From: Maylandia zebra
Lineage: Eukaryota; Chordata; Actinopteri; Cichliformes; Cichlidae
Direction: 5' to 3'
DNA: 64,000 nt
Assembly: GCF_041146795.1 (NCBI RefSeq)
Contig: NC_135185.1
Coordinates: 30,988,529-31,052,528 of the forward strand
Under the pieces are notes generated by a model. It saw nothing but the letters and a program-made list of their open reading frames with translations. It was not told the origin of the DNA and did no database searches. Positions 9,918 through 42,599 of the stretch are shown one piece after another. Positions within the stretch are counted from its first letter, which is position 1; each line of letters opens with the position of its first letter. A program made the position numbers and the translations under genes.

Positions 9918-12900
9918 ATGTTACCAATGGATGTAAATCATCGCCGGACGCTTGCTGCGAAGCTTCTGTTTTATGGGATATTCCTCAGCAACCACATAAG
10001 TGAGGGTGGTAAGTTCAACAAAATGTAGCTTAAAAGATTTCTCAATATCAACTCATAATCAGATTTTTCATGTTGTCAGTTTTCACAGGTCCAAATGGAG
10101 ACTGCACACCCAAGAATACCCTCTTTATCAGTAATGAAACACTAACTCAACAATATTTTCCATCACGTAAGTTCAAAAATAATGAAGGAAAAAATAATAG
10201 TCTTTGAAAGGTTCAAAGAAAACAATAGTACCCTGTGTTTTTAGAAATGATTATTAAATAAATAAGAATACATATAATAAATAATTGTTATATTTTAGAA
10301 ACTATCTACCGAGAGGTCAACGGACCTAAACTCTGTTTCAACATCCAGCCAAACAATAGCCTTGCAGGTACAGTTATCTAATTTTTGTTTTTTATATTTC
10401 GGACTGTTGGTGAAAAAAGTCGTCTTGGGTATTTGCTAAAAGTGTTTGATTGTTTCTGTATTTGTCTTAGATTGTTGTAGCGAAAACAATTTCACCTGTA
10501 GCCTTAAAGTAAAAGGAGACGGACCAGGCAAATACATCCTAAATGCAACTGAAGAGATTTTATCTAAGCAAGATATTGTGGTGATGAAGAAGCCACAGTA
10601 TGATTATTCGTGTATGCCATCACAGGTCTACAACAAAAGCAGCCCTGGTAAGCCTCTAAGACATGAGACTTTGCACACAATGGTCATAATTTTCAGTTTA
10701 TTTGAAAAGGTTTCCAACCAGTGATCTGACGCACTTCTTACTTTGTTGCAGGTTTTCTTTATAACATCAACCGCTGCTTGAATGAAAGTAAATTCACAAA
10801 CCTTTTCCTCTTAATTTCTACATGAAACAACGTGACAGCAGTGACAGTGCACAAGTTCTAATTTCATACTTTTATGTGTTGAAGGTTCCAAAAGCATTAG
10901 AGTGAATGCTGACAGTTGTTTAGATAATGAAACCAATACCAGAGTGGCTTGCAAAGGTATTATGTTGTTTATTTAACAGGATCATTAAAAAAACAACATT
11001 TTAGTAAGTACTGTGATAATAAGAGAGCACGGGGTTGAAAATTTAATTCCTGCTTTTTTCCATGAATGTTTGTATGTGCCTGTGCTATGCAGATGTAACA
11101 GAAACACACTACGTTATCTTTGACAATAAAACATGTGTGTTATGTAAGAAACCAGTCTTGAAAAGTCTAGACAAAGAGATTAATTATACCCTGGAGAAAA
11201 TTCCTACCAGCCCAGACAAAGCAAAGTAAATATCTCAGTTTTCTACAGAACAATAACAGCAAATAAAAATAAATACACGCTTTTGAAATCTGCTCTAAAA
11301 CATTAACGGTGTGTCTTACAGAGATGCCATGAATGTTCTATCATGCTTGTTTAAAGAGCTGGGTAACGCCAGCACAGCAGCAGTGAAAATGGGCAACATT
11401 ACAGGACTGATTGCCAAACTGCCCCAGGAAAACCAAACCAACATGAACTTTGTCTTCACAAAAAACTCTGGAGTAAATGTAAGGTGTTTGTGCAACACAA
11501 TTTTATGACCTTCAATTAATAATATTATTTTGTTCTTCTTTTGTTATTTTTTTTGTTTTACTAATATTTTTAAAAGTCTGTTGAAGAAGAAAACAGCAAT
11601 TCTTTGACGGGCCCATTTCGTTTAATGAAAATTCCTAAAGAGGCCAGTAAAATGGCGGTGGAGAGAAATGGATCATTTCTTGGGATTCTGCTCTTTCCAG
11701 AAATGCATGCGGTAATAGTACAGCTCAACTAATTACTCATGATCTTTATAAAATGTATAAACATATTGACCAAACCTGATCTATTAACAATCTTTTAATC
11801 TTAACAGGATGACAGCAGTAAATACTATTTAAACAGTGAGATAGTGGGAATAGAAATGGGGGCAAAAATACAAAACCTTTCACAACCCATCGAGATTCAG
11901 TACAGTAATGTGGACAAGGTAAGTGTGATGTCATAACAGAAATAATGATCAATTTAAGTTCAGAGGAAAACTTATTCTGATTTTCATTTTCTATTTTGAT
12001 AAAGAAAGGAGCGAATGCTTCTTGCATGTCTTGGGATGGAAACAGCACAGATGCAAACGGTAAAAAACCCCAAATAGATCTCTCTATATATATATCTAAT
12101 TTTAATATGAAAACCACAGGAATTAAAGACCTTTGAAGTGTTCACTCACATTTTGCACACACGCTGATTACTGTGATAAAGTCTGTCTTTAACAGTTACT
12201 TCTTTGTATTACTGCTGTCCAACAGGGAAATCACTCTGGATCACAGATGGCTGTCAAACAGTGGAGACCAATAACAGCATCACCTGCCAGTGCACACATC
12301 TAACCTTTTTTGCCATACTCATGGTAAGACAGCTGTATAGGAAATAAGAAATTATTTTTTTTACAGCACATACTGACACATAACTATTTGAACCTAGTCA
12401 CCTACACCTGCAAACATTAGCACTTCTGATGTTAATACTCTGACCTACATCACTTCAATCGGTTGTGGACTGTCGCTGTTTTTCTTGATCGTCGGTCTCT
12501 TCATGCACGTTCTCGTCAGGTAAGAGATCCGAGGCAGTTTGGATTTTTACCTCAGTAAAGTCCTTTTTCTTACGCACACTAATTTGCTCCACAGAAAGGG
12601 GAAAGCAAGCGAAGCAACAAAGATTCTGATGAACCTCTTTGTCGCCATGTTGATCCTGAACTTGTCCTTCTTGACCAATGAGAGCATTTCAAATCTGGGT
12701 ATCAAAGGTGCATGTGTGGCAATAGCAGCAGTTCTGCACTACGGGATGTTGGCCACTTTTACCTGGTTCTTCATGCAGGCTTTACACTTGTACCTCAGTC
12801 TACGTCGAATCTGCACTGAAGTGAAACATTACATGCTGAAGATTTGCATCACAGGATGGGGTAAGAGACCTGAGCCAAAAATGATACTTATGCTCTCATA

Positions 12901-13605
12901 TTATGAATAATAATCACAGGAGAATTTATATTCCTAATCTTCTCTTTAGTCATACCGGCTGTGGTGGTGATCGCTCTTCTTGCCTCCCAGAAATATAATT
13001 CTATTAATATTAATACAAATGAGGGGAAAGCAGCAACAATGTAAGTCTGTAAATCTGATAATAGATTTCTTGGATAAAACACAAACATCTTCATCAGAGG
13101 ATCACGTTGTACTCCCTTTTTCAGGTGCTGGATCTCTGATGCTGGTATCCACCAGGGGGTCAACATTGGTTATTATGCTGTAGTGTTCGTCTTCACTCTG
13201 AGTGTATTCATTCTAACTGTAAGGCAAATCGTTCTAATGCCAAAAGCAGGAAAGGCCCAAGACAATAGTTCCATTAAGAGCAACACTTCCACCATTCTGA
13301 GCCTGTTCCTCCTTCTTGGCATCACCTGGGCTTTTGCTTTCTTCAGCTACGGACCTTTGCTCATCGCTTCCTACTACATCTTTACCATCCTCAACTCCTT
13401 TCAAGGTAAATCTAAAACTGTCACAGTGAGCTGACTTCATTCTTTATTGGATTAAAAGTCCTTAACCTTCTTCTTTATTTGTATAGGTTTCTTCCTGTTC
13501 ATCTACTATTATAAATCCAGCAAGATTATTGGAGACGGCAAAATCCACACACAAAGTAGCAGCACAGCTACATCAAACACAGCTGTAACGTCTCCTTATG
13601 CATAA
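9918..13605 (+). CDS. Adhesion GPCR gene A (ADGRG-like, alpha ectodomain)
   Basis: Predicted 696-residue adhesion G-protein-coupled receptor at the cell surface. Exons: 9918-10008, 10089-10166, 10299-10367, 10471-10647, 10752-10787, 10885-10956, 11093-11225, 11322-11478, 11577-11711, 11808-11918, 12005-12059, 12226-12323, 12398-12519, 12595-12860, 12950-13040, 13125-13405, 13487-13605. All junctions are GT-AG and the frame is unbroken. Residues 1-30 form a signal peptide. The stalk is Cys- and N-glycosylation-rich. The GPS has paired Trp and Cys, with predicted cleavage at Leu397/Thr398 (CTHL|TFFA), leaving a TFFAILM tethered agonist. TM1 begins near residue 420. Cys485 (TM3) and Cys565 (ECL2, CWISDAG) form the usual disulfide pair, and TM6 has GITWAFAFF. 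The tail ends SPYA. The short stalk without named domains and the TM motifs fit subfamily VIII (GPR97/GPR114/GPR56 group). The exact orthologue is not settled. Exons 1-8 diverge from B and C; the 3' exons are nearly identical to theirs. Confidence 0.88.
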
Positions 13606-13949
13606 GGCTTGCTGTTTTACCATATTTTGACACAAGAGGGCAGCATTTTATTTCATATAGTTCCAGCAGGTTGCTCTGTGTAGAAACAACTTGGTCATTC
13701 TTCCCATGTGCTCTCCGCTGAATGGCTTTTCTGACATGAAAGCACTAACCCAGATTACCTTCTTTGACGCAAATACTCATGTGGACTAGAGCTCGAGTCA
13801 GTACTCTGGAAGTCATTTCAGAGCACGACTCTATGTTTGTTCCCATGCTTTTATATTTTAACAGACAAACTTGTCTTACTCACGCCAAATAATTCATAGA
13901 AGGCTGTGATTCAGTCAGAATACGCAACCACAATTGTAAACATGTCAGG
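13606..13949 (+). other. 3' flank of gene A (probable 3'UTR)
   Basis: This stretch follows the stop codon and is matched, almost base for base, after gene C (40,839-41,182). Only its second part is present after gene B, because of the 198-bp deletion there. No canonical AATAAA is visible close behind the stop, so I cannot place the poly(A) site. Confidence 0.4.
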
Positions 13950-14066
13950 ATGTTAAGGTGTAAAATGTTAAAGTGGGAAAGTGAAACATGTCAAAGACAT
14001 AAGGACATTTTCAATTTGATGGCAGTAACACCTCTCAAAAAGTTGGGACAGGGACATGTTGACAAC

Positions 14067-14460
14067 CCGCTTTCAAGTCAAAAAGTCGTCATAAATAAGT
14101 CTCCAATAACACCAGAAAAAGTCGCCAGATTTGTCGCTAGTTGCTTTTTAGAAAAAGAGTCGCTAAGGGGGTCTGAAAACTCGCTAAATATAGCGACAAA
14201 GTCACTAAGTTGGCAACACTGGTGCTACTGCTGTTGCGAGTGTAACTACCGCCCCCGCCCCCTCAGCTCAGGGAGGGGCGCAAACACAAGGCTTTGTTTG
14301 CCGTCTCTGCTCAGCGCAAACACAAGGGTGACTTGCAGCATAAAGTGAAAGAGAGGGCAAGAGAAAGAAAAAAAAAACCCCACGGCTCCCAATAAGGAGC
14401 CGGCTCGCATTGTTCACTTCAAAGATACGGCTCTAAGAGCCATTTCGTTCGCGGCCGACC
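14067..14460. mobile_element. hAT-like non-autonomous sequence
   Basis: This block has a GC-rich interior and ends with GGAGCCGGCTC, ACGGCTCTAAGAGCC and ATTTCGTTCGCG, a motif set I associate with fish hAT-type elements. It is absent from the corresponding place after gene C, so it inserted into the gamma flank. No transposase is visible and its borders are not certain. Confidence 0.45.
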
Positions 14461-15200
14461 CATCACTACAAGTGATATTCCTAAAACTTTTCCACTCAGG
14501 GGCCGAGTCATTCTCTGAGATCTGCTGCTGCATCTTCTCAGAGTGCTGATGTTTGGCAATGTCCACTTCTTTAGTGAACCTGTACTTGGCCTCTCTGTAG
14601 CAGTCCCTGTCTCCGCTTCTGAACGCCTTTCTCTTTTCCAGCCACAGCTTTTTGGGTTTAGGAGTAAAACAGGGTTTGTCATTGTTATAACTCACCCTGG
14701 TGCGTGATGGCACAATGCTGTCCTTGCAGAAGTGGATATAGGAGGTGACAGTGTCCATAAACTCATCCAAGCTGTTAGAAACAGCCTTCATTGTGTCCCA
14801 GTCTGTAGACTCCAAACACGTGCGAAGCTCCTCCACAGCCTCATTGCTCCACAGTTTTTTAGTCCTCATGACAGGTTTGGAGAGCTTCAGCCTCTGTCTG
14901 TACGTAGGGATCAGATGGATCATGACGTGGTCAGAAAGTTCGAGTGCAGTGCAGGGTAACACTGGTCCAGTGTCCTCTCCTCTCTGGTCGGGCATTTAAT
15001 ATACGGTTTATATTTGGGAAGTTCCTGGCTTAGATTGGCTTTGTTAAAGTCCCCAAGAGCCATAATGACAGTGTCCGGGTATGCCTGATCCATGTGCAGT
15101 ACCTGCTCCTCGAGGGCACACTGAGCTGCATGCAAATCTGCATCTGGCAGAATGTAAACAGTGGCCATAAAGAATGAAGCAAACTCCTGCAGAGATTAAA
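14414..15200 (-). pseudogene. L2-type LINE fragment (endonuclease end and linker)
   Basis: Two overlapping minus-strand frames give the region between the APE endonuclease and the reverse transcriptase of a fish L2-clade LINE. The first (about 15,168-14,920) has VIMALGDFNKANL and KCPTREERTLDQCY, the end of the endonuclease. The second (14,995-14,414) has LSDHVMIHLIPTYRQRLKLS, KLWSNEAVEELRTCLESTDW and FRSGDRDCYREAKY, typical linker blocks. A frame change separates them. The RT domain is missing, so this is a broken internal piece with no function of its own. Confidence 0.8.
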
Positions 15201-15624
15201 GCATAGAAGATAGTGCTTGTGTGAATGGTGCATGTTGCATTGAGTGCTTTGAGTACCCCGGGAGAGTAGAAAAATGCTATTTAATAATCTTAGCATTCTC
15301 TTGTAGAAATATCCAAGCAATTCCTCGAAAAAGATGTCTGCATGGGAGAACATGTTGATATAAAACCTTTACATACAGTACCTCTCAGGATTGATGGTGC
15401 CTTTTCACATGTAAAAGCTAGGCATTAAATTTATGGTGAGGATCATTATTCTTTATTCACTATTCTGAAATTGTCCCACAATTTGAAGACAACAGCATCC
15501 ACGGTGGGGAAAGCTCAACTGGCAAACAAGACATGAGCTCAACACTACCTATAGTGATAAGATCCCTGAAGTTATTCGGATGTTGAAACTATTCTTTAAA
15601 ATGTACCACATTTTATGAGCATAT

Positions 15625-15800
15625 GGATAGGATTATCTCCCTTTTTCTTTCTCTGCACTACATATTTTATTTTGTATATATGTTACTTATTTATTGTGTT
15701 TTGCCTGCCTTATTTTAGTATCACAGTGGGACAATTTTGTTGTACCCATATATACAAAGTACAACTGTGCAATGACAATAAAGAGTTAAATATGTTCAGT
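15625..15800 (+). mobile_element. LINE/SINE 3' end insertion
   Basis: About 170 bases ending in GTGCAATGACAATAAAGAGTT look like a retroposon 3' end. The diverged flank of gene C (near 42,750) lacks them, while both sides of the insertion are recognisable there. It therefore inserted into the gamma flank after the older duplication. Clade not assigned. Confidence 0.45.
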
Positions 15801-16784
15801 GTATTTTGACAAACTCCTTTGCTTGTGGTAGATTTTTTTGTCAAGTTAATCATTAGTATTTATTTATAAAATAGCTTTTTTGAAATAAAAATTATAGCAA
15901 TTCTTTAAAATTTACCATATTTAGGTAAATTAAGGTCTGATTTGTTCAATGACTTTTTACTATGTTAATATATTTTTCATTCAGAAATCTTCTGATTGGC
16001 TTTTTTAGTTCTCATTTTTGTGGTTTTATTGTAGTAGTAAATGGAAATGTTGTAATAACTTTTTTTCTATTTGATCAGGACACAATATTTCATACATATA
16101 AGTAAAGTATTGTGGGAAAAAATGATGTGTATACACAATAAAGTCTTAAAATAAAAGATTATGCTTTTCTTTAAATTTTGGTTATTAATGATTTCTTCAA
16201 ACTACTCTTTTTACAGTGTGTAATGATTGTACCGCACATATCTAGAGTGATTTTATAAAATAACTGAAAGTTGCAGCAGTGCACATGGACAAGCCAAATG
16301 CATTCTGGAGAAGGGTTTTATGGTCAGACTAGACAAATACTGAGCTATTTGGTCACAATGAAGAGAAGCACATTTAGAGGAGTATAGGGGAGTACCAGCT
16401 GTCAAACACGATGATGCATCCTGTAGGATGAGCATCATTCTCTGGCACAGTGCTGTTTGTTATGATGATTTCTGATATGAGGTTCAGTTCTACGGTGATG
16501 ATCGCAGGGTGTGCACAGGTCAAGTGCCACTATGACCCTCCAGACAATAACGAGGACAGGGGATGACCGTTCAGCTCTTTAATGGCAGATTTAGCGTGGG
16601 TGTGGGTATGTGTGTGGTTCTACAAACAGAATGGAAAATAGAACACAAATTACAATCAAATTATAGACAACAATAATCACCATATAACATATTACAGCCA
16701 CATACTTGTCTTATAGACCCTAATACTAAGCTGGCGGCTTTTACTTATAGTCTGAACCATATTTGGCAACAAAGAAAATAAGTC

Positions 16785-18860
16785 AAGTCAAGTCAAGTTT
16801 ATTTATAGAGCACATTTAAAAACAACCAAGGCTGACCAAAGTGCTGTACAGTAAATACAGATAAAAATACAATAGAACACAATTTCGTAAAACACCTCGT
16901 TGATCAAATAAAAAATAAATAAACAAATAAATTAAACCTTTCTAAAAGCCAATGAAAAGAGGTGAGTTTTAAGAGCAGTTTTAAAAGTTTCTAGGCTTTT
17001 GGAGAATCTGACGTGAGGAGGTAAACTGTTCCACAGTCTGGGTGCAGCCACAGCAAACGCCCTCTCTCCCTTTGTCTTTAATTTATACCTGGGAACATCT
17101 AAAAGCATCAGATCGGCTGACCTCAAAGATCTCCTGGGGCGATAAGTACTAAGGAGTTCTGACAGGTAAGAAGGTGCAGTGCCATTTAAAACCTTAAAAG
17201 CCAGCAGTAAGATTTTAAAATCAATCCTAAAAGCAACTGGGAGCCAGTGGAGAGAGCAGAGAACCGGAGTGATGTGGTCTCTTTTTTTTTGAACCGGTCA
17301 ACAGGCGAGCGGCAGCGTTCTGCACCAGTTGAAGGCGATGTAGACAGGAACGATCTAGGCCAGCATAGAGGGAATTACAGTAGTCCAGCCGTGAAGTAAT
17401 AAAAGCATGGACCACTCTTTCTAGATCGTTCCTGCAAAGGTAAGACTTGACTTTGGCTAAAATCCGTAAATGATAAAAAGATCCCTTAACTACAGAGCTG
17501 ATTTGTTTATCAAGTTTAAAAGCATTGTCAAAAATAACTCCAAGACTCTTAATGGAAGAAGTGCAATCGGAGGTTAGGGGTCCCAAAAAGTCAAGAGAGA
17601 AGTTGGGATCTTTAGGAAGCCCAAACACAATGACTTCAGTTTTGCTTTCATTAAGGTGTAAGAAGTTAAGAGTCATCCAAGTCTTAATGTCAGACAAGCA
17701 GGAGAGTAGCGGCTGCAAAGAAACATTGCAGTTCAACCTCAGAGGGAGGTAGATCTGAATATCATCGGCAAAGATGTGGAAGGACACATTATGTTTACGG
17801 AGCACATCGCCCAGAGGGAGCAAGTACAGAATAAACAACAGGGGGCCTAGTATGGACCCCTGAGGTACGCCACAGGTTAAAGGAGCTCTGGGAGATGACA
17901 GTTCACCAAGGTGAACAGAAAAACTCCTATTATTCAAATAGGACTGGAAAAACTTTAAGACAGTGCCCTTTAAACCGACACAATGTTGAAGGCGGGCTAG
18001 CAGTATGTTGTGATCTACAGTGTCGAAGGCTGCTGTCAGGTCCAAGGTTACTAAGACAGCAGCACAACCAGAGTCAACAGTTAAAAGCAAATCATTAAAA
18101 ACTCTCAGTAGGGCGGTTTCTGTGCTATGCCGAGCTCTAAAACCAGACTGGAACTTCTCATAGAGATTGTTGTTGTCAAGAAATAGCTGGAGCTGCGTGA
18201 GGGCGGCTCGTTCCAGTACTTTGGACAGAAAAGGGAGGTTGGAAATGGGCCTATAGTTAGAGAGTAGGGATGGATCTAGATTAGGCTTTTTAAGGAGAGG
18301 TTGAACAACAGCGTGCTTGAAGGGTGTTGGAAAGCAACCAGAACTGAGGCAGGCATTGATCAGGACCAGAAGGAAAGGTCCGACTGAGTCCAGAACCTGC
18401 TTCAGAAGCCGAGAGGGGATAGCATCGGTGGAACAGTTGGTAGTCTTAACCTTGCAGACTATTTCATGCAGCTGAGAGAGAGAGATTGGTTCGAACTGAT
18501 TAAAGGCAGAATGGCACAAAGAAAAAACACAGGGATTGGAAGGTGGAGATGGAATGACAGACTGCAGGGAGGAAATCTTGTTTACAAAGAACTTTAGAAA
18601 GTCATTACAGAGGGTGGCAGAAGGTGTGAGGCTGGTGGATATGCAAGGATTAACAATGGAATTTAAAACACGAAACAGAGTCTGAGGTTTATGGACACTA
18701 CTGCTAACCAGGTTTGATATGTAGGAGGACTTGGCCTCTTTAACGGCTTTCTGATAGGTTAAAAGAGAGTCTCTGAGGATATTAAAAGAAATGTGCAGCT
18801 TGTCCTTTTTCCATTTTCTCTCAGCACACCTAAATAATAAACATCTTCCCATCACTTAAC
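16785..18860 (-). mobile_element. L2/CR1-like LINE, 5'-truncated copy 1
   Basis: A minus-strand non-LTR retrotransposon. Its 3' end at about 16,785-16,930 has a tail of tandem CAAGT/ACTTG pentamers. The frame at 18,855-17,227 gives 542 residues. RT blocks: NYRPISNLPFLSKVLE (about 200-215), LDLTAAFDTVDHN (271-283), CGVPQGSILGPLLF (328-341), FADDIQIY (362-369). The APE endonuclease is absent, consistent with 5' truncation. A T-run of nine bases at about 17,282-17,290 (eight in copy 2) breaks the frame before the C-terminal block, which continues at 17,126-16,932 in another frame. So this copy is inactive. L2 or a close CR1-group relative is my best clade assignment. Confidence 0.82.
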
Positions 18861-19269
18861 TCTTGTGCCCCACTCACTTATGATGCCAACTAAAGAAGGC
18901 AAATACACATAACAAATCACCAACTCAAACTGAACTCAGTTTGGCCTAGGCGAACTTAGCTTAGCTTAGCCCGCTTAGCTTAGCCCGCTTAGCTTAGCGA
19001 TAATTTAGCTTATAGAAAATGTACAAACAGAGGACGTCCAGAGCAAGAAAACATACAGGCTATCCTTCTTACACAAGAAATATCCTGTAACTCACCAGTC
19101 TTATGGACGCACACTCTCACTGAACCCACATAAACTGCTCCCGAGCATAACTTGTAATTCACACTGCCTTCATGAACACCATTTTCCATCCCAGTCAAAC
19201 ATTACTCACAAAACGGCCGCGCCCTCTAGTGGCGAGGCAGAAAGCTGCATCACAGTCCTGCCTTCAGAA

Positions 19270-19491
19270 CACTGTTAGACTGCGCAAAGTGGATAGAATA
19301 ATGAAGGAGGACTACCTCTAAAGTCTTCAACTTCACCTCAACTCAGCAGCATAAAACTTAAACACAACTGGGTGTTCAAACCGGACAATGATCTCAAACA
19401 CATCAAATCTGGTTTTGGAATAAATAAAGCAGGCTAACATTGAGCTTCTGGAACAGCCTTTCTAAAGCCCTGACCTCAACACTATTCGACA
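19270..19491 (+). pseudogene. Tc1-like transposase C-terminal fragment, left part
   Basis: The + strand carries decayed Tc1 transposase coding sequence corresponding to the end of the catalytic domain, with GACAATGATCTCAAACACA (the second Asp region) and AGCCCTGACCTCAACAC (the SPDLNP motif). The match resumes at 22,715, after a 3.2-kb insertion, with the next part of the same gene. It is heavily mutated. Confidence 0.65.
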
Positions 19492-19756
19492 TATAGTTGG
19501 TGGTGGGAAAAAGTTATTTTTAATGTTTGTCACACTTAAATGTTTCAGATCATCAGACAAATTCAAATATTAGACAAAGACAACACAAGTAAACACAAAA
19601 TGCAGTTTCTAAATGAAGGTGTTTATTATTAAGGGGGAAAAAATCCAAACCTACATGGCCCTGCGTGAAAAAGTGATTGCCCCTAAACCTAATAAATGGT
19701 TGGGCCTCTCTTAGCAGCAACAACTGCAATCAAGCAGTTGCTGTAACTCAGTCATA

Positions 19757-20170
19757 ATCAGTGTTGGTCAAGTTACTTGAAAAAAGTAATCAGTAACGAA
19801 TTACTGATTACTTCCCCCCAAAAGTAATCCCATTACTTTACTGATTACTTATTTTCAAAAGTAATTAATTACTTAGTTACTTTTTAAAAACACAATTTAC
19901 AACCTGAATAGGTGATAAAGCGATAGATCTTTCAGCCCAATTCTACTTTTTCTGCATAATACATCATACAAAATGTAATCAGATGGAAAAGTCTCTTTTT
20001 AAAACTTGTTTTATTAGTTTTAAGCTTTTAACTTTATGCATCAAGCAAAAAATTTATTATATGCAACATTCTCTGACTGGAAGAATTAATTTACTTTTAA
20101 ACCTATTTTCTGCACATTCCAGCACATAAAATAAAATAGGTTTTTGTGTTTACGCTCACTCTTTCAAATA
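19757..20170. mobile_element. hAT-type non-autonomous element, left end
   Basis: It begins with CAGTGTTGGTCAAGTTACTT followed by AGTAAT/ATTACT-rich sequence, the start of a common family of fish non-autonomous hAT elements. The matching right end (expected to read AGTAACTT..CCAACACTG) is not visible, so it is truncated, probably by the next repeat at 20,180. Confidence 0.5.
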
Positions 20171-20174
20171 GATG

Positions 20175-20285
20175 CATGTAGGGATGGGTATTGATAAGAT
20201 TTTCACGATTCCGATTCCATTTTCGATTCTGTTTAACGATTCAATTCTTTATCGATTCTCTTATCGATTCTTTTTAAAAAGGAGA
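20175..20285. mobile_element. Fragment of ATCGAT-rich DNA transposon end
   Basis: TAGGGATGGGTATTGATAAG followed by repeated ATCGATTC blocks is a recognisable end of a fish DNA transposon, probably hAT. Only this end is present, so the superfamily is a guess. Confidence 0.4.
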
Positions 20286-20506
20286 ACACTAACTTTGTTT
20301 GTTAGAACTTTGTTTTATATCTTCTCTTTGAACAAGATAGAAATTTAGGAGTAACATGGCCTTACAAACCCAACAGTGAGATCTTAAGAGATCCAGCCTA
20401 CGGCTCTTCAATGGGGTGTCACAGGGACCCCAGGAAAAAAAATTGTAAATGTATAATAATTAAATAAATATTCTTCTGTAGCAATAACAAAGTATAACAT
20501 AAACTA

Positions 20507-20897: not shown

Positions 20898-21059
20898 AAC
20901 ATAAACTATTCTGTAGCAATTACACAAGAATATCCAGTAATGTCCCTGCCTACAATTAAACACATTCACTTACCGAAAATTGGGGGCATCTGCTGTGGTA
21001 AATGGGTGCAAGCCTTTGACCACAAACTGAGTCACTGCTCGGTGACATTTATGGGCAGA

Positions 21060-22262: not shown

Positions 22263-22267
22263 TGACT

Positions 22268-29334: not shown

Positions 29335-30319
29335 GTATTTTGACAAACTCCTTTGCTTGTGGTAGATTTTTTTGTCAAGTTAATCATTAGTATTTATTTA
29401 TAAAATAGCTTTTTTGAAATAAAAATTATAGCAATTCTTTAAAATTTACCATATTTAGGTAAATTAAGGTCTGATTTGTTCAATGACTTTTTACTATGTT
29501 AATATATTTTTCATTCAGAAATCTTCTGATTGGCTTTTTTAGTTCTCATTTTTGTGGTTTTATTGTAGTAGTAAATGGAAATGTTGTAATAACTTTTTTT
29601 CTATTTGATCAGGACACAATATTTCATACATATAAGTAAAGTATTGTGGGAAAAAATGATGTGTATACACAATAAAGTCTTAAAATAAAAGATTATGCTT
29701 TTCTTTAAATTTTGGTTATTAATGATTTCTTCAAACTACTCTTTTTACAGTGTGTAATGATTGTACCGCACATATCTAGAGTGATTTTATAAAATAACTG
29801 AAAGTTGCAGCAGTGCACATGGACAAGCCAAATGCATTCTGGAGAAGGGTTTTATGGTCAGACTAGACAAATACTGAGCTATTTGGTCACAATGAAGAGA
29901 AGCACATTTAGAGGAGTATAGGGGAGTACCAGCTGTCAAACACGATGATGCATCCTGTAGGATGAGCATCATTCTCTGGCACAGTGCTGTTTGTTATGAT
30001 GATTTCTGATATGAGGTTCAGTTCTACGGTGATGATCGCAGGGTGTGCACAGGTCAAGTGCCACTATGACCCTCCAGACAATAACGAGGACAGGGGATGA
30101 CCGTTCAGCTCTTTAATGGCAGATTTAGCGTGGGTGTGGGTATGTGTGTGGTTCTACAAACAGAATGGAAAATAGAACACAAATTACAATCAAATTATAG
30201 ACAACAATAATCACCATATAACATATTACAGCCACATACTTGTCTTATAGGCCCTAATACTAAGCTGGCGGCTTTTACTTATAGTCTGAACCATATTTGG
30301 CAACAAAGAAAATAAGTCA

Positions 30320-32395
30320 AGTCAAGTCAAGTTTATTTATAGAGCACATTTAAAAACAACCAAGGCTGACCAAAGTGCTGTACAGTAAATACAGATAAAA
30401 ATACAATAGAACACAATTTCGTAAAACACCTCGTTGATCAAATAAAAAATAAATAAACAAATAAATTAAACCTTTCTAAAAGCCAATGAAAAGAGGTGAG
30501 TTTTAAGAGCAGTTTTAAAAGTTTCTAGGCTTTTGGAGAATCTGACGTGAGGAGGTAAACTGTTCCACAGTCTGGGTGCAGCCACAGCAAACGCCCTCTC
30601 TCCCTTTGTCTTTAATTTATACCTGGGAACATCTAAAAGCATCAGATCGGCTGACCTCAAAGATCTCCTGGGGCGATAAGTACTAAGGAGTTCTGACAGG
30701 TAAGAAGGTGCAGTGCCATTTAAAACCTTAAAAGCCAGCAGTAAGATTTTAAAATCAATCCTAAAAGCAACTGGGAGCCAGTGGAGAGAGCAGAGAACCG
30801 GAGTGATGTGGTCTCTTTTTTTTGAACCGGTCAACAGGCGAGCGGCAGCGTTCTGCACCAGTTGAAGGCGATGTAGACAGGAACGATCTAGGCCAGCATA
30901 GAGGGAATTACAGTAGTCCAGCCGTGAAGTAATAAAAGCATGGACCACTCTTTCTAGATCGTTCCTGCAAAGGTAAGACTTGACTTTGGCTAAAATCCGT
31001 AAATGATAAAAAGATCCCTTAACTACAGAGCTGATTTGTTTATCAAGTTTAAAAGCATTGTCAAAAATAACTCTTAAGACTCTTAATGGAAGAAGTGCAA
31101 TCGGAGGTTAGGGGTCCCAAAAAGTCAAGAGAGAAGTTGGGATCTTTAGGAAGCCCAAACACAATGACTTCAGTTTTGCTTTCATTAAGGTGTAAGAAGT
31201 TAAGAGTCATCCAAGTCTTAATGTCAGACAAGCAGGAGAGTAGCGGCTGCAAAGAAACATTGCAGTTCAACCTCAGAGGGAGGTAGATCTGAATATCATC
31301 GGCAAAGATGTGGAAGGACACATTATGTTTACGGAGCACATCGCCCAGAGGGAGCAAGTACAGAATAAACAACAGGGGGCCTAGTATGGACCCCTGAGGT
31401 ACGCCACAGGTTAAAGGAGCTCTGGGAGATGACAGTTCACCAAGGTGAACAGAAAAACTCCTATTATTCAAATAGGACTGGAAAAACTTTAAGACAGTGC
31501 CCTTTAAACCGACACAATGTTGAAGGCGGGCTAGCAGTATGTTGTGATCTACAGTGTCGAAGGCTGCTGTCAGGTCCAAGGTTACTAAGACAGCAGCACA
31601 ACCAGAGTCAACAGTTAAAAGCAAATCATTAAAAACTCTCAGTAGGGCGGTTTCTGTGCTATGCCGAGCTCTAAAACCAGACTGGAACTTCTCATAGAGA
31701 TTGTTGTTGTCAAGAAATAGCTGGAGCTGCGTGAGGGCGGCTCGTTCCAGTACTTTGGACAGAAAAGGGAGGTTGGAAATGGGCCTATAGTTAGAGAGTA
31801 GGGATGGATCTAGATTAGGCTTTTTAAGGAGAGGTTGAACAACAGCGTGCTTGAAGGGTGTTGGAAAGCAACCAGAACTGAGGCAGGCATTGATCAGGAC
31901 CAGAAGGAAAGGTCCGACTGAGTCCAGAACCTGCTTCAGAAGCCGAGAGGGGATAGCATCGGTGGAACAGTTGGTAGTCTTAACCTTGCAGACTATTTCA
32001 TGCAGCTGAGAGAGAGAGATTGGTTCGAACTGATTAAAGGCAGAATGGCACAAAGAAAAAACACAGGGATTGGAAGGTGGAGATGGAATGACAGACTGCA
32101 GGGAGGAAATCTTGTTTACAAAGAACTTTAGAAAGTCATTACAGAGGGTGGCAGAAGGTGTGAGGCTGGTGGATATGCAAGGATTAACAATGGAATTTAA
32201 AACACGAAACAGAGTCTGAGGTTTATGGACACTACTGCTAACCAGGTTTGATATGTAGGAGGACTTGGCCTCTTTAACGGCTTTCTGATAGGTTAAAAGA
32301 GAGTCTCTGAGGATATTAAAAGAAATGTGCAGCTTGTCCTTTTTCCATTTTCTCTCAGCACACCTAAATAATAAACATCTTCCCATCACTTAACT
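30320..32395 (-). mobile_element. L2/CR1-like LINE, 5'-truncated copy 2
   Basis: Duplicate of the LINE at 16,785-18,860. Here the frame breaks at a different place. A one-base length change near 31,070 ends the main frame (32,389-31,061) shortly after the RT domain. The C-terminal block at 30,948-30,466 is intact because the T-run has eight bases. Each copy is thus disabled by its own mutation. Confidence 0.82.
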
Positions 32396-32789
32396 CTTGT
32401 GCCCCACTCACTTATGATGCCAACTAAAGAAGGCAAATACACATAACAAATCACCAACTCAAACTGAACTCAGTTTGGCCTAGGCGAACTTAGCTTAGCT
32501 TAGCCCGCTTAGCTTAGCGATAATTTAGCTTATAGAAAATGTACAAACAGAGGACGTCCAGAGCAAGAAAACATACAGGCTATCCTTCTTACACAAGAAA
32601 TATCCTGTAACTCACCAGTCTTATGGACGCACACTCTCACTGAACCCACATAAACTGCTCCCGAGCATAACTTGTAATTCACACTGCCTTCATGAACACC
32701 ATTTTCCATCCCAGTCAAACATTACTCACAAAACGGCCGCGCCCTCTAGTGGCGAGGCAGAAAGCTGCATCACAGTCCTGCCTTCAGAA

Positions 32790-33011
32790 CACTGTTAGAC
32801 TGCGCAAAGTGGATAGAATAATGAAGGAGGACTACCTCTAAAGTCTTCAACTTCACCTCAACTCAGCAGCATAAAACTTAAACACAACTGGGTGTTCAAA
32901 CCGGACAATGATCTCAAACACATCAAATCTGGTTTTGGAATAAATAAAGCAGGCTAACATTGAGCTTCTGGAACAGCCTTTCTAAAGCCCTGACCTCAAC
33001 ACTATTCGACA
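32790..33011 (+). pseudogene. Tc1-like transposase fragment, left part, unit 2
   Basis: Duplicate of 19,270-19,491, including the AGCCCTGACCTCAACAC block. Confidence 0.62.
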
Positions 33012-34026
33012 TATAGTTGGTGGTGGGAAAAAGTTATTTTTAATGTTTGTCACACTTAAATGTTTCAGATCATCAGACAAATTCAAATATTAGACAAAGA
33101 CAACACAAGTAAACACAAAATGCAGTTTCTAAATGAAGGTGTTTATTATTAAGGGGGAAAAAATCCAAACCTACATGGCCCTGCGTGAAAAAGTGATTGC
33201 CCCTAAACCTAATAAATGGTTGGGCCTCTCTTAGCAGCAACAACTGCAATCAAGCAGTTGCTGTAACTCAGTCATAATCAGTGTTGGTCAAGTTACTTGA
33301 AAAAAGTAATCAGTAACTAATTACTGATTACTTCCCCCCAAAAGTAATCCCGTTACTTTACTGATTACTTATTTTCAAAAGTAATTAATTACTTAGTTAC
33401 TTTTTAAAAACACGATTTACAACCTGAATAGGTGATAAAGCGATAGATCTTTCAGCCCAATTCTACTTTTTCTGCATAATACATCATACAAAATGTAATC
33501 AGATGGAAAAGTCTCTTTTTAAAACTTGTTTTATTAGTTTTAAGCTTTTAACTTTATGCATCAAGCAAAAAATTTATTATATGCAACATTCTCTGACTGG
33601 AAGAATTAATTTACTTTTAAACCTATTTTCTGCACATTCCAGCACATAAAATAAAATAGGTTTTTGTGTTTACGCTCACTCTTTCAAATAGATGCATGTA
33701 GGGATGGGTATTGATAAGATTTTCACGATTCCGATTCCATTTTCGATTCTGTTTAACGATTCAATTCTTTATCGATTCTCTTATCGATTCTTTTTAAAAA
33801 GGAGAACACTAACTTTGTTTGTTAGAACTTTGTTTTATATCTTCTCTTTGAACAAGATAGAAATTTAGGAGTAACATGGCCTTACAAACCCAACAGTGAG
33901 ATCTTAAGAGATCCAGCCTACGGCTCTTCAATGGGGTGTCACAGGGACCCCAGGAAAAAAAATTGTAAATGTATAATAATTAAATAAATATTCTTCTGTA
34001 GCAATAACAAAGTATAACATAAACTA

Positions 34027-34417
34027 CTATAGGCAGCACGGTGGCACGGTGGTTAGCACTGTTGCCGCACAGCAAGAAGGTCCTGAGTTCAATTCCACCA
34101 CCAGGCCGGGGCCTTTCTGTGTGGAGTTTGCATGTTCTCCCCGTGTTTGCGTGGGTTCCCTCCGGGTACTCCGGCTTCCTCCCACCGTCCAAAGACATGC
34201 AGCTTGTGGGGATAGGTTAATTGAATAATCCAAATTGTCACTAGGTGTGAATGAAAGTGAGTGCGAATGGTTGTCTGTCCCTGTGTGTTAGCCCTGCGAC
34301 AGACTGGCGACCTGTCCAGGGTGTACCCCGCCCCTCGCCCTATGACAGCTGGGATAGGCTCCAGCGCCCCCCGCGACCCTGAAAAGGATAAGCGGAAGCG
34401 AATGGATGGATGGATGG
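34027..34417 (+). mobile_element. SINE-like retroposon, unit 2
   Basis: Duplicate of 20,507-20,897, with the same flanking AACATAAACTA repeats and (ATGG)n end. A few substitutions are visible (for example CTGTCCCTGTGTGTTA against CTGTCTCTGTGTGTTG). Confidence 0.74.
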
Positions 34418-35647
34418 AACATAAACTATTCTGTAGCAATTACACAAGAATATCCAGTAATGTCCCTGCCTACAATTAAACACATTCACTTACCGAAAAT
34501 TGGGGGCATCTGCTGTGGTAAATGGGTGCAAGCCTTTGACCACAAACTGAGTCACTGCTCGGTGACATTTATGGGCAGAAATCTGTGCCATCTGAAACTG
34601 AATTTGAATAAGTTAAATTTGAATTTGAATTGCTAGGCTTGAATCTGAATTGTAACTTGAATAAATGCTTTTAAAAACTGAATTTGAATTAGTCTAATTT
34701 GAAATTCAATTTATTGGTTTGAAAATGATCATAACTAAATTGAAATTGAATTTTATATTTTGAAAATGAATTGATTTGCTTTGAAACTGCATTTTATCCT
34801 TTAAAAATTTAGCTCTCGAATAATTTCAGTTTCAGTTCTACAATTCAATTTCAGTTCCAAAATTCAGTTTTTTGGAACTTACATCCAGTTCCGGTTCAAG
34901 TGCAGATTAATAGAACTACGTTTTACTAGCGGACCGAAAGTGTTACTGACGGGAAGTAACTTTTATGCTTATTGTAGCTGTTAGCTAAAACGCTAATTTA
35001 GCATAGTTTGCCCTGAATTCAGCTTTGACAACAAATATGATCGACTGTTTCTAGTAGAATTCCAAAGTTGTCATCTTGGACCCTCTCAGAGTGCCCCTCT
35101 GTATGCTTGCAGAGACCCCTACAGTAGGGAAACATGCAAAACTGTCCAAACCTTTGTATTTTAGCTCTATTTATATCTTACACAGCATCCCAACTCTTTA
35201 GCTAACTTAATAACTTTAGCTAAAGTGAATAGTTAGTCTAATTCATTAGTGCAGCATTACTGGATCACCTCTGTTTGAAGTGATATAATATGATATACAA
35301 CTATCACTGAAACAGCAAACTTTGTAAATAAGCAAACAACACTTCTCATTCTCTAAACGTTTGGCCACAGCTGTAGATTACACTATCAGTGCTTGTTCAC
35401 TCTTGACAATAATAACATTTCTAAATTCTCTTTGTGCATTTACAGGTAAACAATATCTAATATTTTATCTAAATGACTACTTTGTCTTTGAAAAGGGTGA
35501 AGAGCCTGAGGCCGGTGACAGTCCAGTTCTACTCTAAGTACATCCTTACTGTAGCTCACAGGACAAGGCCACATTCCTGTCCTGCCAGAAGAGAAGAGAA
35601 ACTTCAGAGTCTTCATGCAGTTCAACCACACCTGTCATATTCCATAT

Positions 35648-35761
35648 GACAGGGGTCTCAAACTCCAGTCCTCAAGGGCCAGTGTCATGAAACTTTTCCA
35701 TGTGTCCCTGGTGCAACACACCTGAATACAATTAGTAGGTCATTAGCAAGAGTATAGAACT
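35648..35761. mobile_element. Half of a hAT-like MITE, unit 2
   Basis: Duplicate of 22,149-22,262. Confidence 0.53.
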
Positions 35762-35766
35762 TGACT

Positions 35767-36044
35767 GCGTGCTGAAGTGGCGACCCCTGACAAGGATGCC
35801 CCCTGGGCGCCTCCTGGGTGAGGTGTTCCAGGCATGTCCCACCGGGAGGAGGCCCCGGGGCAGACCCAGGACACGCTGGAGAGATTATATCTCTCGGCTG
35901 GCCTGGGAACGCCTTGGTATTCCCCCGGATAAGCTGGAGGAGGTGGCTGGGGAGAGGGAGGTCTGGGCCTCTTTGCTTAGGCTGCTGCCCCCGCGACCCG
36001 GCCTCGGATAAAACGGATGAAGATGGATGGATGGATGGGTTTGT
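35767..36044 (+). mobile_element. Rex3 (RTE) 3' end, unit 2
   Basis: Duplicate of 22,268-22,545. The frame 35,769-36,011 has the same terminal Rex3 blocks and a (GGAT)n tail. Confidence 0.87.
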
Positions 36045-36213
36045 ATAACTTTTCTCCCTTAATCAATGAAATCATCATTTTAAAAATGCATTTTGTATTT
36101 ATTTACCTTTGTCTAATATTAAAATCTGTTTCATTATCTGAAACATGTAAGTGTGACAAATATGTGAAAAACTAAGAAATCAGGAAAGTGCAAACACTTT
36201 TTCACACCATTGT

Positions 36214-36409
36214 ACGCTTAAAAGCCAGGCCCATGCCAGGGAACCAACAGATTTAAACTAACTCTGCCAACACTGCCAAGAAGAATGTTGGTTAATGGGT
36301 ACCAAAAGCATGCCACTGAGGTGCAACTTGCCACGTCACATTAAACCAAATATTACTGGGCGTACGTACATATATTAGAATGTATGTATACTTTTGACAT
36401 TTTGTGGAT
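36214..36409 (+). pseudogene. Tc1-like transposase fragment, right part, unit 2
   Basis: Duplicate of 22,715-22,910; continues the fragment at 32,790-33,011. Confidence 0.58.
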
Positions 36410-36688
36410 TAGAAAAAAATCCAAAATAAAATCATAATTTGTGCACTCAAATCTTATATTTTAAAGTAAGATGTCTGTTGCATAAACATTCAAGCCCATG
36501 ATGAACGTATGTAAACATCTGACTACAACTGTAAATAATCCTATACACTGCACATCTTTAGAAACCTGCGGATACCTAGAAGGTTTTAGCACAATCAGAG
36601 TGATGACTTCCTGTTTTCCATCCAACCTGAAATGAGCACAGATACATTTTAAAAACTGCACATTCTTTAGATTTCATATCAGTACAAG

Positions 36689-37012
36689 GGATAAAGTATT
36701 ACTGGAGCATTTATGTTCAGACCTACAGTCCAGCCCATGGGGGGGGGAGTAGCATTCTGGCAGTGTTTTTTCTGAGGAAACATATAATTTAAAAAGGGGG
36801 ACCAGTTTATTTGCAAGTCAAAGTAAAGAGGAAGATATCAAAGGTATATTTGTCAGCAAAAATAATGACTGTAAGTTCAAGTTGCTGTGAAACTCAACAA
36901 CGCAGAACATATTCTCATTTGGGAAATAGAAGCTGGAACTTATTAAGTTTTAGGTTGTGATAAGTAAGCTTGCTCCATTTTCATTTGCAGGCTCCCTTTT
37001 CTTCTTAGGATA
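36689..37012 (+). promoter_or_regulatory. Conserved 5' flank of gene C
   Basis: Near-identical to the block before gene B. The acceptor-like tract before the ATG reads CTTCTTAG here and CTCCTTAG before gene B. Confidence 0.42.
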
Positions 37013-40000
37013 ATGTTACCATTGGCTGTAAACCATTGCCTGATGTTTGCCGTGGAGCTAATGCTTCTGTTGTACAGCACAGGTAAGTAACAAAATCTAG
37101 CTTAAAAGAAACCAGTATTTCTCAAAATATTTTTCTCATATTTTTACGTTGAAATTTTTTAGGCACAAATGGAGACAGTAAACCCAATAATACCCTCTTT
37201 ATCAGTCCCAAAACACTAGCTGATTCATATTTTCCATCAAGTAAGTTAAAAACAATACAGGAAAAAATCATCATTAGGTTAAAGGACAAACTTAGTAATC
37301 TGGGGTTTTATATTTTAATTTAGAAACTATCTACCAAGAGGACAATGGAACTAAACTCTGTTTCAACATCCAACCAAATAATACACGTGCAGGTACAGTT
37401 ATCTAATTTTTAGCTTTTCTTTTTTTTTTGCTTTCAAGCTGTTGGGGAAAAACATTTGTCTTGGTTATTTGCTAAATGTGTTTGTGCTTTAAATTTTTCT
37501 TAGAGTGTTGTAACGACACGGATTTCAACTGCAATATTGAAGTAAAAATAGATAGTCAAGGTAAATACAGGCTAAATTTAACTGAAGAGATTTTATCCAA
37601 GCAAGATATTGTGGTGATGAAGGATCCAGAGCATAATTATTCATGTATGCCATCCCAGCTCTACAACAAAAGCAGCCCTGGTAAGCCTCTAAGAAGTGAG
37701 TTAGTGCACAGTGGTCAAATTTTCAGTTTATTTGATCAGTTTGAAAAGGTTTCCAACCAATGATCTGATGCACTTTCCATCTTGTTGCAGGTTTTTTTTG
37801 TAACATCAACCGCTGCTTGAGTGAAAGTAAATTCACAAACCTTTTCCTCTTAATTTCTACATGAAACAATGTGACAGCAGTGACAGTGCACAAGTTCTAA
37901 TTTCATACTTTTATGTGTTCAAGGTATGAAGAATATGAGTATGAATATGAAACTGAGCAAAGGGAGCTTTCGTGAAAACCTCACAGGTATAATTATTTGT
38001 TTATCAAATCAGTTAAAAACAAATATTTAATGTTAGCAAGTGTAACAACAGCCCGCTTGTGTTTGTGTGTGTGTGTTTGCATACTTTGTGTACATTTACA
38101 TAAAACAGAATATGTCGTGAGTGATAATGACACATGGACTGTGTCATGCAACCCATCCACAACAACCACCAGCATCATTTCTTCCAGCAAATCTTCCACA
38201 ACAACCACCAGCATCATTTCTTCCAGCGAATCTTCCACAACAACCACCAGCAATGACAATGACACTATTGACATTTCCATCAACCATACCATTCCTAACC
38301 CAGTGTAGATATCTCAGTTTTCATAGAAATATTTTTGCAATATTGTGCACTTTTGAAATCTACTTTAAGAAACTAACTGTGTCTCCGTGTTACAGAGACG
38401 TCATGAAAAATCTATCCTTTGTCCTTGAAATGATGGGTAATTTTGGCACAGCAACAATCAAGATGGGCAACATCACAGGAGTGATTGCCAAACTCTCCCA
38501 GAAAAATCAAACCAACATGAACTTTGCCTTCACAGAAAACGCTGGCGTGAAGGTAAGGTGTTTGATAAAAGAGCGTGACACAATTTTAAGACTGTGGATT
38601 ACTAACTCTCTAATGTCTGAGGCATGGAATAATTGCCAGAAAAATCATATTTCTGAGTTCAGTGAAAATTACTCTGGTTATTGAACATTCTGATGAAATA
38701 CAAAAGATACTTTAATGCTCATTTGCATATATTAGTTTTAATTTGTATAATACATATGCATGACATCATTATTTTATAATTGTTTTTGCTGATAAACATT
38801 TCTCATTTTGAAAGATTGTTAAAGGAGAAAACAGCAATTCTTTGACGGGCCCATTTCGTTTAATGAAAATTCCTAAAGAGGCCAGTAAAATGGCGGTGGA
38901 GGGAAATGGATCATTTCTTGGAATTCTGTTGTTTCCACACCAGCATGTGGTAATAGTACAGCTCAACTAAAAACTTACTTTTCATATGTATAAACATATT
39001 GACCAAACCTGATCTATTAACAATCTTTTAATCTTAACAGGATGACAGCAGTAAATACTATTTAAACAGTGAGATAGTGGGAATAGAAATGGGGGCAAAA
39101 ATACAAAACCTTTCACAACCCATCGAGATTCAGTACAGTAATGTGGACAAGGTAAGTGTGATGTCATAACAGAAATAATGATCAATTTAAGTTCAGAGGA
39201 AAACTTATTCTGATTTTCATTTTCTATTTTGATAAAGAAAGGAGCGAATGCTTCTTGCATGTCTTGGGATGGAAACAGCACAGATGCAAACGGTAAAAAA
39301 CCCCAAATAGATCTCTCTATATATATATCTAATTTTAATATGAAAACCACAGGAATTAAAGACCTTTGAAGTGTTCACTCACATTTTGCACACACGCTGA
39401 TTACTGTGATAAAGTCTGTCTTTAACAGTTACTTCTTTGTATTACTGCTGTCCAACAGGGAAATCACTCTGGATCACAGATGGCTGTCAAACAGTGGAGA
39501 CCAATAACAGCATCACCTGCCAGTGCACACATCTAACCTTTTTTGCTATACTCATGGTAAGACAGCTGTATAGGAAATAAGAAATTATTTTTTTTACAGC
39601 ACATACTGACACATAACTATTTGAACCTAGTCACCTACACCTGCAAACATTAGCACTTCTGATGTTAATACTCTGACCTACATCACTTCAATCGGTTGTG
39701 GACTGTCGCTGTTTTTCTTGATCGTCGGTCTCTTCATGCACGTTCTCGTCAGGTAAGAGATCCGAGGCAGTTTGGATTTTTACCTCAGTAAAGTCCTTTT
39801 TCTTACGCACACTAATTTGCTCCACAGAAAGAGGAAAGCAAGCGAAGCAACAAAGATTCTGATGAACCTCTTTGTCGCCATGTTGATCCTGAACTTGTCC
39901 TTCTTGACCAATGAGAGCATTTCAAATCTGGGTATCAAAGGTGCATGTGTGGCAATAGCAGCAGTTCTGCACTACGGGATGTTGGCCACTTTTACCTGGT

Positions 40001-40838
40001 TCTTCATGCAGGCTTTACACTTGTACCTCAGTCTACGTCGAATCTGCACTGAAGTGAAACATTACATGCTGAAGATTTGCATCACAGGATGGGGTAAGAG
40101 ACCTGAGCCAAAAATGATACTTATGCTCTCATATTATGAATAATAATCACAGGAGAATTTATATTCCTAATCTTCTCTTTAGTCATACCGGCTGTGGTGG
40201 TGATCGCTCTTCTTGCCTCCCAGAAATATAATTCTATTAATATTAATACAAATGAGGGGAAAGCAGCAACAATGTAAGTCTGTAAATCTGATAATAGATT
40301 TCTTGGATAAAACACAAACATCTTCATCAGAGGATCACGTTGTACTCCCTTTTTCAGGTGCTGGATCTCTGATGCTGGTATCCACCAGGGGGTCAACATT
40401 GGTTATTATGCTGTAGTGTTCGTCTTCACTCTGAGTGTATTCATTCTAACTGTAAGGCAAATCGTTCTAATGCCAAAAGCAGGAAAGGCCCAAGACAATA
40501 GTTCCATTAAGAGCAACACTTCCACCATTCTGAGCCTGTTCCTCCTTCTTGGCATCACCTGGGCTTTTGCTTTCTTCAGCTACGGACCTTTGCTCATCGC
40601 TTCCTACTACATCTTTACCATCCTCAACTCCTTTCAAGGTAAATCTAAAACTGTCACAGTGAGCTGACTTCATTCTTTATTGGATTAAAAGTCCTTAACC
40701 TTCTTCTTTATTTGTATAGGTTTCTTCCTGTTCATCTACTATTATAAATCCAGCAAGATTATTGGAGACGGCAAAATCCACACACAAAGTAGCAGCACAG
40801 CTACATCAAACACAGCTGTAACGTCTCCTTATGCATAA
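37013..40838 (+). CDS. Adhesion GPCR gene C (ADGRG-like, beta ectodomain)
   Basis: Predicted 707 residues. Exons: 37013-37082, 37163-37240, 37324-37392, 37504-37680, 37791-37826, 37924-37986, 38109-38304, 38396-38552, 38815-38949, 39041-39151, 39238-39292, 39459-39556, 39631-39752, 39828-40093, 40183-40273, 40358-40638, 40720-40838. The frame is open throughout. Exons 1-8 match gene B almost exactly. By my count exon 4 differs from gene A at 19 of 59 residues. GPS cleavage is predicted before Thr409. The full-length C-tail ending SPYA is kept. Exon 7 carries the Ser/Thr repeat with Ile in place of Asn. Early exon 9 is a mosaic: it has gene A's [10 protein letters not shown] rather than gene B's ENSNFTGPF, then returns to beta-type bases. 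One residue of TM-region exon 14 differs from A and B (KRK for KGK). The downstream flank is of the older, diverged delta type. Confidence 0.88.
38151..38251 (+). repeat. 39-bp coding minisatellite in exon 7 of gene C
   Basis: Same two-and-a-half-unit array as in gene B. Each full unit reads [11 protein letters not shown] followed by KS or ES, so the sequon present in gene B (NSS) is lost in both units. Confidence 0.9.
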
Positions 40839-42450: not shown

Positions 42451-42599
42451 TAAGAAATTAAACATTTATTTTTTTTGACTGATGTGCTTCTCAATGTGAT
42501 TAAAAATAGCAGAATCAAGGTGAAAGGAAGGCTTGTCTCACATATCCTACACAGTGTCGGGGCTGAACTCGCCAGTTAGTGTGTTGCGTGCCTTCAGAT

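Follow-up and report, generated by a model that had tools for sequence, protein, structure and literature searches.

Unequal crossing over between tandem genes leaves a parent, a hybrid and a parent in that order, as in anti-Lepore globin and the hybrids of opsin arrays. Here we describe the same order at a locus in which gene conversion appears to have acted as well: three tandem ADGRG-type adhesion G protein-coupled receptor (GPCR) genes, A, B and C, in a 64-kb stretch of DNA from Maylandia zebra (the window; contig C19, 30988529-31052528). A and C share a nearly identical 3′ half, and the middle gene, B, is probably the product of an unequal crossover inside that half. One of the closest described systems is EMR2 (ADGRE2), a CD97–EMR3 chimera of mammals that joins the ectodomain of one relative to the seven-transmembrane (7TM) domain of another, its EGF and 7TM parts matching two different genes (Kwakkenbos 2006, as cited in PMC2720389 and PMC10055975). 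EMR2 resembles the present case in that related adhesion-GPCR genes undergo conversion of parts of the gene, i.e. concerted evolution. A second comparison is provided by TLR1 and TLR6, tandem receptors whose C-terminal-ward region was homogenised by independent conversions in nine mammals, with the N-terminal part kept apart (PMC2077338). In zebrafish, the species-specific Group VIII-like genes g8l1-5 are likewise a teleost expansion next to the ADGRG set; their description concerns repertoire and expression, not mosaic evolution (PMC4335454). The locus is thus a new case of a known process, mosaic concerted evolution of clustered receptors combined with unequal crossing over, as comparison with EMR2 and TLR1/TLR6 indicates. 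Search listings of open-access papers, among which most subscription papers are missing, showed no report on a fish ADGRG cluster that describes gene conversion or a chimeric gene.

All three genes lie on the forward strand, and the coordinates of the locus are collected in Table 1. Every internal exon border is GT-AG and each gene has a single stop. The initial annotation had claimed open frames over 17 exons for all three; this is correct, with the qualification that the frame of B is open only because a 198-bp deletion drops its native end and an in-frame TGA lies close behind. A Pfam scan of A and B detected GPS (PF01825; 46.6 and 46.7 bits) and the class-B 7TM domain (PF00002; 115 and 116 bits) above their cut-offs, and the corresponding half of C equals that of A bar one residue. 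The GPS and tethered-agonist sequence is identical across the three proteins. As judged by this domain order, a GPS motif followed by a class-B 7TM domain, A, B and C are adhesion GPCRs. Their nearest relatives place them in the ADGRG group: when the shared half was compared with solved sequences, the top nine of 52 matches were ADGRG6, G2, G3, G4, G5 or G1, and the receptor-named cichlid relatives are called G5, G2-like or GPR64-like (two Sarotherodon entries bear unrelated names and three Oreochromis entries none). Among named relatives, haplochromine cichlids come nearest: A differs from a Pundamilia nyererei protein (P0007) at one residue in exons 1–8, one in exon 9 and none in exons 10–17, and C shares 96% identity with P0001, a protein of Haplochromis burtoni. 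Exon 7 of B (24657-24753) and of C (38156-38252) contains a 39-bp tandem repeat coding for a Ser/Thr-rich stretch, in which two Asn-Ser-Ser sequons are present in B and H. burtoni and missing from C; the second tilapia beta protein (P0006) has many more of these repeats than either.

Self-alignment of the window confirmed that the three ectodomains are of types alpha, beta and beta, and the three downstream flanks of types gamma, gamma and delta, as the initial annotation had proposed. The beta ectodomain and the region upstream of it are common to B and C. Past positions 14066, 27599 and 41299, respectively, A and B remain alike and C departs; the first and second copies of the gamma flank, compared up to the next gene, differ by 20 substitutions in 9414 bp. 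The two ends of B therefore branch differently, the 5′ part joining B with C and the 3′ flank joining A with B; an identical branching of both, which the initial annotation had named as a refutation of its reading, is not seen. Between them lies sequence common to all three genes. In the self-alignment A 11568-14066 matches C at 99.0%, and upstream of 11568 the match of A to B and C is ~75–79% in aligned blocks. A two-segment likelihood fit of A against C placed the tract at 11753-14067, with 2/2315 differences inside vs 563/2169 (26%) outside, and the gain in log-likelihood, 440, is far beyond chance. This tract, here termed X, runs from A 11753 in intron 9 to ~14064, and its 2.3 kb comprise exons 10–17 and ~460 bp past the stop. 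Within it A and C differ at 2/2311 bp, A and B at 2/2113, and B and C at 4/2113. Upstream of 11753, A differs from B and C at about a quarter of sites on average, in exons and introns equally, apart from nearly identical islands: a 76-bp patch in exon 9 (A vs C) and a stretch of intron 5 (2/97). Introns 10–16 and 458 bp of 3′ flank show no difference between A and C. The identity of the two genes in X is not due to protein constraint, because it includes introns and 3′ flank. In the exon-9 patch C carries the residues SL, also found in A, where the relative from Simochromis has only L, and B has the state of most other beta proteins. The patch likely reflects A-to-C conversion after B and C separated.

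A comparison with other cichlids suggests that this homogenisation has occurred more than once. In Nile tilapia the alpha type is represented by P0008 and the beta type by two proteins, P0002 and P0006. In exons 1–8 the window alpha is 84% identical to the tilapia alpha, and A is 55% identical to C; in the protein of tract X the order is reversed, with A and C at 99.7% and the two alphas at 96.8%. Paralogues of one lineage are thus nearer than orthologues in X and the reverse holds in exons 1–8, which is the pattern expected of conversion, although approximately unbiased (AU) tests of X gave modest values. Among 11 cichlid proteins, the 231 columns of exons 1–8 contain 46 that split alpha from beta and one that splits haplochromines from Oreochromini, the 44 columns of exon 9 contain two and none, and the 380 columns of X contain none and five; the short gene models P0009 and P0015 were left out of the column counts and of the exons 1–8 tree. 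That tree unites the alphas (support 100/100), and the AU test rejects a clade of haplochromines (p 1.7e-5); the tree also unites B and C with the H. burtoni beta protein (100/100), to the exclusion of the tilapia betas. In the tree of X, by contrast, the haplochromines come together (85/82), as do four Oreochromis proteins representing both types (80/91), which Sarotherodon does not join; for X the AU test rejects a clade of alphas (p 0.035) and one of betas (p 0.0325). Since the ectodomains group by type and the GPS-7TM half groups by tribe, with moderate support, these data point to repeated gene conversion, with haplochromines and Oreochromini apparently having homogenised the 3′ half independently of each other.

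The origin of the third gene is indicated by a 13.5-kb tandem repeat. Positions 13714-27249 match 27247-40751 at 99.4% over 13.5 kb, and both ends of the repeat lie at homologous points of A and C. Because these ends match, and because the tandem, same-strand genes follow in the order alpha-gamma, beta-gamma, beta-delta, i.e. parent, hybrid, parent, an unequal crossover between A and C is indicated, much as the initial annotation had suggested. We consider the explanation as a whole, including a prior conversion between A and C, to be probable. Tandem duplications of such size also arise independently of homology, and a replication-based or end-joining event could have had its ends in the shared tract by chance. 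This would require the coincidence that both ends fell at homologous positions within a 2.3-kb near-identical tract, no non-homologous junction is seen in the alignment, and we regard such an event as highly improbable. With unequal crossover preferred, the position of the exchange can be bounded. The initial annotation had expected a breakpoint within exons 8–10. Alignment of the three loci finds a switch in intron 9 that is present in both B and C; it therefore marks the edge of the A/C conversion tract rather than the breakpoint of B, and the crossover point could lie anywhere in A 11753-14064. It had also been proposed that B combines the ectodomain of C with the 7TM exons and downstream environment of A. 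The ectodomain and the 3′ flank are as proposed, whereas the 7TM half can be assigned to neither parent. The crossover itself yielded a third copy with the 3′ flank of A and did not join an ectodomain to a new 7TM domain, as had been thought.

We infer the following order of events. Two old tandem genes, A with an alpha ectodomain and gamma flank and C with a beta ectodomain and delta flank, would have diverged over their full length, and gene conversion between them would then have rendered practically identical a 2.3-kb tract encoding the end of the GAIN domain, the GPS and tethered agonist, the 7TM domain and the tail. Exons 1–8 would have remained largely apart throughout, and a like homogenisation would have taken place separately in tilapias. 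The identical tract may then have served as the pairing site for the unequal crossover between A and C, which would have duplicated the 13.5 kb between the tracts and so produced B, with C's ectodomain, the common 7TM half and A's 3′ flank. Later, B would have lost 198 bp including the conserved C-terminal tail, and C would have gained its exon-9 patch from A. Outside X, B and C differ at 30/11,384 bp (0.26%). At a rate of 3.5e-9 per base and generation, as given in PMC8321545, this corresponds to a split ~376,000 generations ago, a rough figure that conversion would bias downwards. Within the 13.5-kb unit, a LINE-type reverse-transcriptase open reading frame (ORF; 542 aa, RVT_1) on the reverse strand is intact in the first copy (17230-18855) and broken by a frameshift in the second (30466-32389).

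Several observations weigh against this account. The branches of the X tree are weak and its AU values modest. All four variable sites in X are single-copy differences private to B or C; none is diagnostic for the exchange point. A and C differ in X at 2 of 2311 bp, where 6.1 differences are expected from the divergence of the unit (Poisson p 0.058, not significant); the divergence is slightly below that of the unit, and conversion may postdate the duplication. In exons 1–8 B has two differences from the H. burtoni beta protein and five from C, and the tree gives no order among the three, so that the separation of B from C may be older or younger than the H. burtoni species split. An A–C divergence in X that does not exceed that of the unit would also fit a history in which the duplication came first, by a crossover at low identity, and the 3′ halves were made alike afterwards, with B converting C (or A); the exon-9 patch of C, as a conversion after the split, fits it too. 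Crossovers as a rule need long near-identity, which counts against this history. Furthermore, the alpha and beta 7TM halves of tilapia are already alike, and B, C and the H. burtoni beta protein are grouped apart from the tilapia betas; homogenisation thus took place in a lineage that lacks the B/C split. We consider duplication before conversion distinctly unlikely, and retain the reading in which conversion prepared the crossover.

The protein of B is altered at its C-terminus. A private 198-bp deletion, corresponding to A 13516-13713, takes the last part of exon 17 together with 108 bp past the stop. Beyond it the frame soon reaches the in-frame TGA at 27265-27267, and the protein ends in KSAEWLF. 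A, C and the nine other cichlid proteins compared have instead a tail of 30 residues, conserved among them apart from small changes. In the 83 of 120 homologues with a recognisable end of the seventh transmembrane helix (TM7), tail length ranges from 10 to 215 residues, and one is shorter than 15; the other 37 lack the TM7-end motif and could not be measured. By these comparisons, what sets the protein of B apart is the loss of its native tail, along with a handful of substitutions. Most residue differences between B and C outside the tail are changes in C when polarised by H. burtoni and the tilapia betas: I188, K192, I201, the exon-9 SL, H323, V326 and R457 (B numbering) are assigned to C, S31 and V449 to B, and residue 269 is not polarisable. 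Differences are denser in coding sequence (12/2031) than in noncoding sequence (22/11116; Fisher p 0.0035), also when nonsynonymous changes alone are set against noncoding ones (p 0.012). The single-codon changes comprise nine nonsynonymous and two synonymous (dN 0.0056, dS 0.0046, ratio near 1), in a comparison that omits the twelfth coding difference, in the codon of the exon-9 indel, and the altered tail of B. The faster change of coding sequence is no more than suggestive of positive selection between B and C. With the same GPS and tethered agonist, A, B and C would signal alike when their ectodomains are engaged, and B would answer the ligand of the beta receptor with an altered tail, hence with altered desensitisation or trafficking.

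The differences between B and C also bear on whether B exists as a separate gene. If only A and C were real, two allelic 13.5-kb loops could have been laid in tandem by the assembler, and the deletion in B would be an allelic polymorphism. Here too there are points against our account. Its basis is one assembly, which would look no different had the assembly graph been followed across the tract two times; such an error gives exactly a repeat-bounded loop, and false heterotype duplications are among the commonest errors of vertebrate assemblies (PMC8081667). The present assembly retains at least one haplotig-like contig (C39 vs C20), the B–C divergence of 0.26% lies inside the range of nucleotide diversity given for populations of Pseudocrenilabrus (0.19% and 0.51%; PMC6375353), and local heterozygosity may still be high. 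Against an artefact, B and C are 5.7 times as divergent as the haplotig-like contig and its chromosome copy (18/38,682; Fisher p 4e-9), a rate taken from the four of seven sampled pairs that aligned over >1 kb, the three that gave nothing being left out, and the B–C divergence is ~5 times the diversity of three Lake Victoria species (0.04–0.056%; PMC8321545). There is no N in the window or in the 8 kb either side (80 kb in all). A search of the 962-Mb assembly (63 contigs) with the 3′ half found three copies, all in the window, and no fourth; the beta 5′ part occurs twice at full length genome-wide, and A's at 75%. The excess of coding differences between B and C is unlike random error, although alleles under selection could produce it. 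Taken together, we regard an assembly or haplotype artefact as unlikely. No further receptor copy was found in the window beyond A–C or in the 8 kb either side, and none of more than 48% identity elsewhere in the assembly, where 57 of 1496 first-look candidates were scored. Contig C39 (449 kb), used here as a yardstick only, repeats part of C20 (36.23-36.35 Mb) and is either a retained haplotig or a very recent duplication.

These results set the locus apart from the described systems. B is not shown to be a chimera of the EMR2 type, as the 7TM domains of A and C are indistinguishable: unlike in EMR2, all three genes have one common 7TM half, and only the 3′ flank of B can be traced to A rather than to C. 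In anti-Lepore globin and in opsin arrays, the hybrid is unlike either parent over the length of the gene, whereas the protein of B differs from that of C by its tail deletion and substitutions. TLR1 and TLR6 belong to another protein family, the abstract describing them mentions no chimeric third gene (PMC2077338), and the homogenised tract reported here takes in introns and 3′ flank.

Comparable pairs are found in certain other fishes, but not in all. Among 29 within-species protein pairs from 16 species, nine combine 7TM domains that are 96–99% identical with ectodomains at 50–94%. Six are near-identical almost throughout and are probably isoforms or one gene annotated twice. The remaining 14, from Xiphophorus, Poeciliopsis, Poecilia, Fundulus, Gambusia, Acnodon, Astyanax and a distant Pygocentrus protein, have 7TM domains only 45–87% identical. 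Pairs with ectodomains at 50–54% and 7TM domains at 96–98.5% are found in Channa striata, Serrasalmus rhombeus and Pygocentrus nattereri; with the window species and Nile tilapia included, the pairs of these fishes (a snakehead and two piranhas) span 50–61% and 96–99.6%. Ten pairs, hand-picked after the 29 had been seen, were compared together with A–B and A–C of the window against a background of 3360 pairs, from which cichlid–cichlid and same-species or close-kin sets had been removed by hand. Nine of the 12 exceed every background pair of like ectodomain identity, only 14–15 background pairs lying near the value of the window. The Xiphophorus and Poeciliopsis pairs show no excess, and for Poecilia formosa none could be computed. 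A between-species Alosa pair (61.6% and 97.8%) approaches the same pattern. In the piranhas independent homogenisation is not shown, the 7TM domains of orthologues being 97.4% identical vs 94.5–96.7% for paralogues, with a grouping that does not follow species. It is possible, and we suggest it tentatively, that in some fish ADGRG clusters gene conversion is a standing device that keeps the signalling half (GPS, tethered agonist and 7TM domain) common and the ectodomains separate, the identical halves in turn favouring the gain of new copies by unequal crossover. Were this so, B, in which a beta ectodomain comes without the native tail, would offer a natural experiment on receptors free of tail-dependent desensitisation. 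The cluster offers a clean example of a modular receptor with a common signalling half and a diversifying sensing half, in which sameness feeds change in copy number. The pattern may recur in fish adhesion GPCRs, which can be checked in existing genomes. Moreover, phylogenies of such receptors built from the 7TM domain alone can group by lineage, masking old ectodomain lineages.

Table 1. Coordinates of the receptor genes, shared tracts and flanks (positions in the window)
Feature	Position	Strand	Remarks
Gene A	9918-13605	+	17 exons, 699 aa
Gene A exons 1–9	9918-11711	+	alpha ectodomain; presumably signal peptide, N-terminal region and part of GAIN
Tract X in A	11753-14064	+	rest of intron 9, exons 10–17 (C-terminal part of GAIN, 7TM, tail to stop at 13605), ~460 bp downstream
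Gamma flank of A, up to gene B	14065-23513	+	first copy; single-copy part of the 13.5-kb unit
Gene B	23514-27267	+	17 exons, 683 aa; beta ectodomain, shared GPS-7TM half, altered tail
Tract X in B	25484-27597	+	would contain, at some point along it, the crossover that formed B
Junction of 198-bp deletion in B	27246-27249	+	3-bp TCC microhomology
Gamma flank of B, up to gene C	27598-37012	+	second copy; single-copy part of the 13.5-kb unit
Gene C	37013-40838	+	17 exons, 707 aa; beta ectodomain, shared GPS-7TM half, full tail
Exon-9 patch in C	38826-38901	+	identical to A 11588-11663
Tract X in C	38986-41297	+	nearly identical to A and B
Delta flank of C	41299-43140	+	only scattered 72–83% blocks in common with gamma

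Searches of the window for RNA families and tRNAs found none. Elsewhere in the assembly, C1:4694279-5010175 contains 17 exon-level adhesion-GPCR-like matches (30–45% to P0006) within ~0.32 Mb, probably another tandem array. Downstream of the receptor cluster, the reverse strand at 49490-54621 carries remains resembling a long terminal repeat retrotransposon between 188-bp direct repeats that are 98.4% alike, with ORFs containing a zinc knuckle, RVT_1 and RNase H (51542-53785) and integrase domains (50149-51645). A further reverse-strand ORF at 54984-55706 matches HTH_38 at 24.6 bits, just below the Pfam cut-off of 27, and we take it to resemble a Tc1-type transposase.

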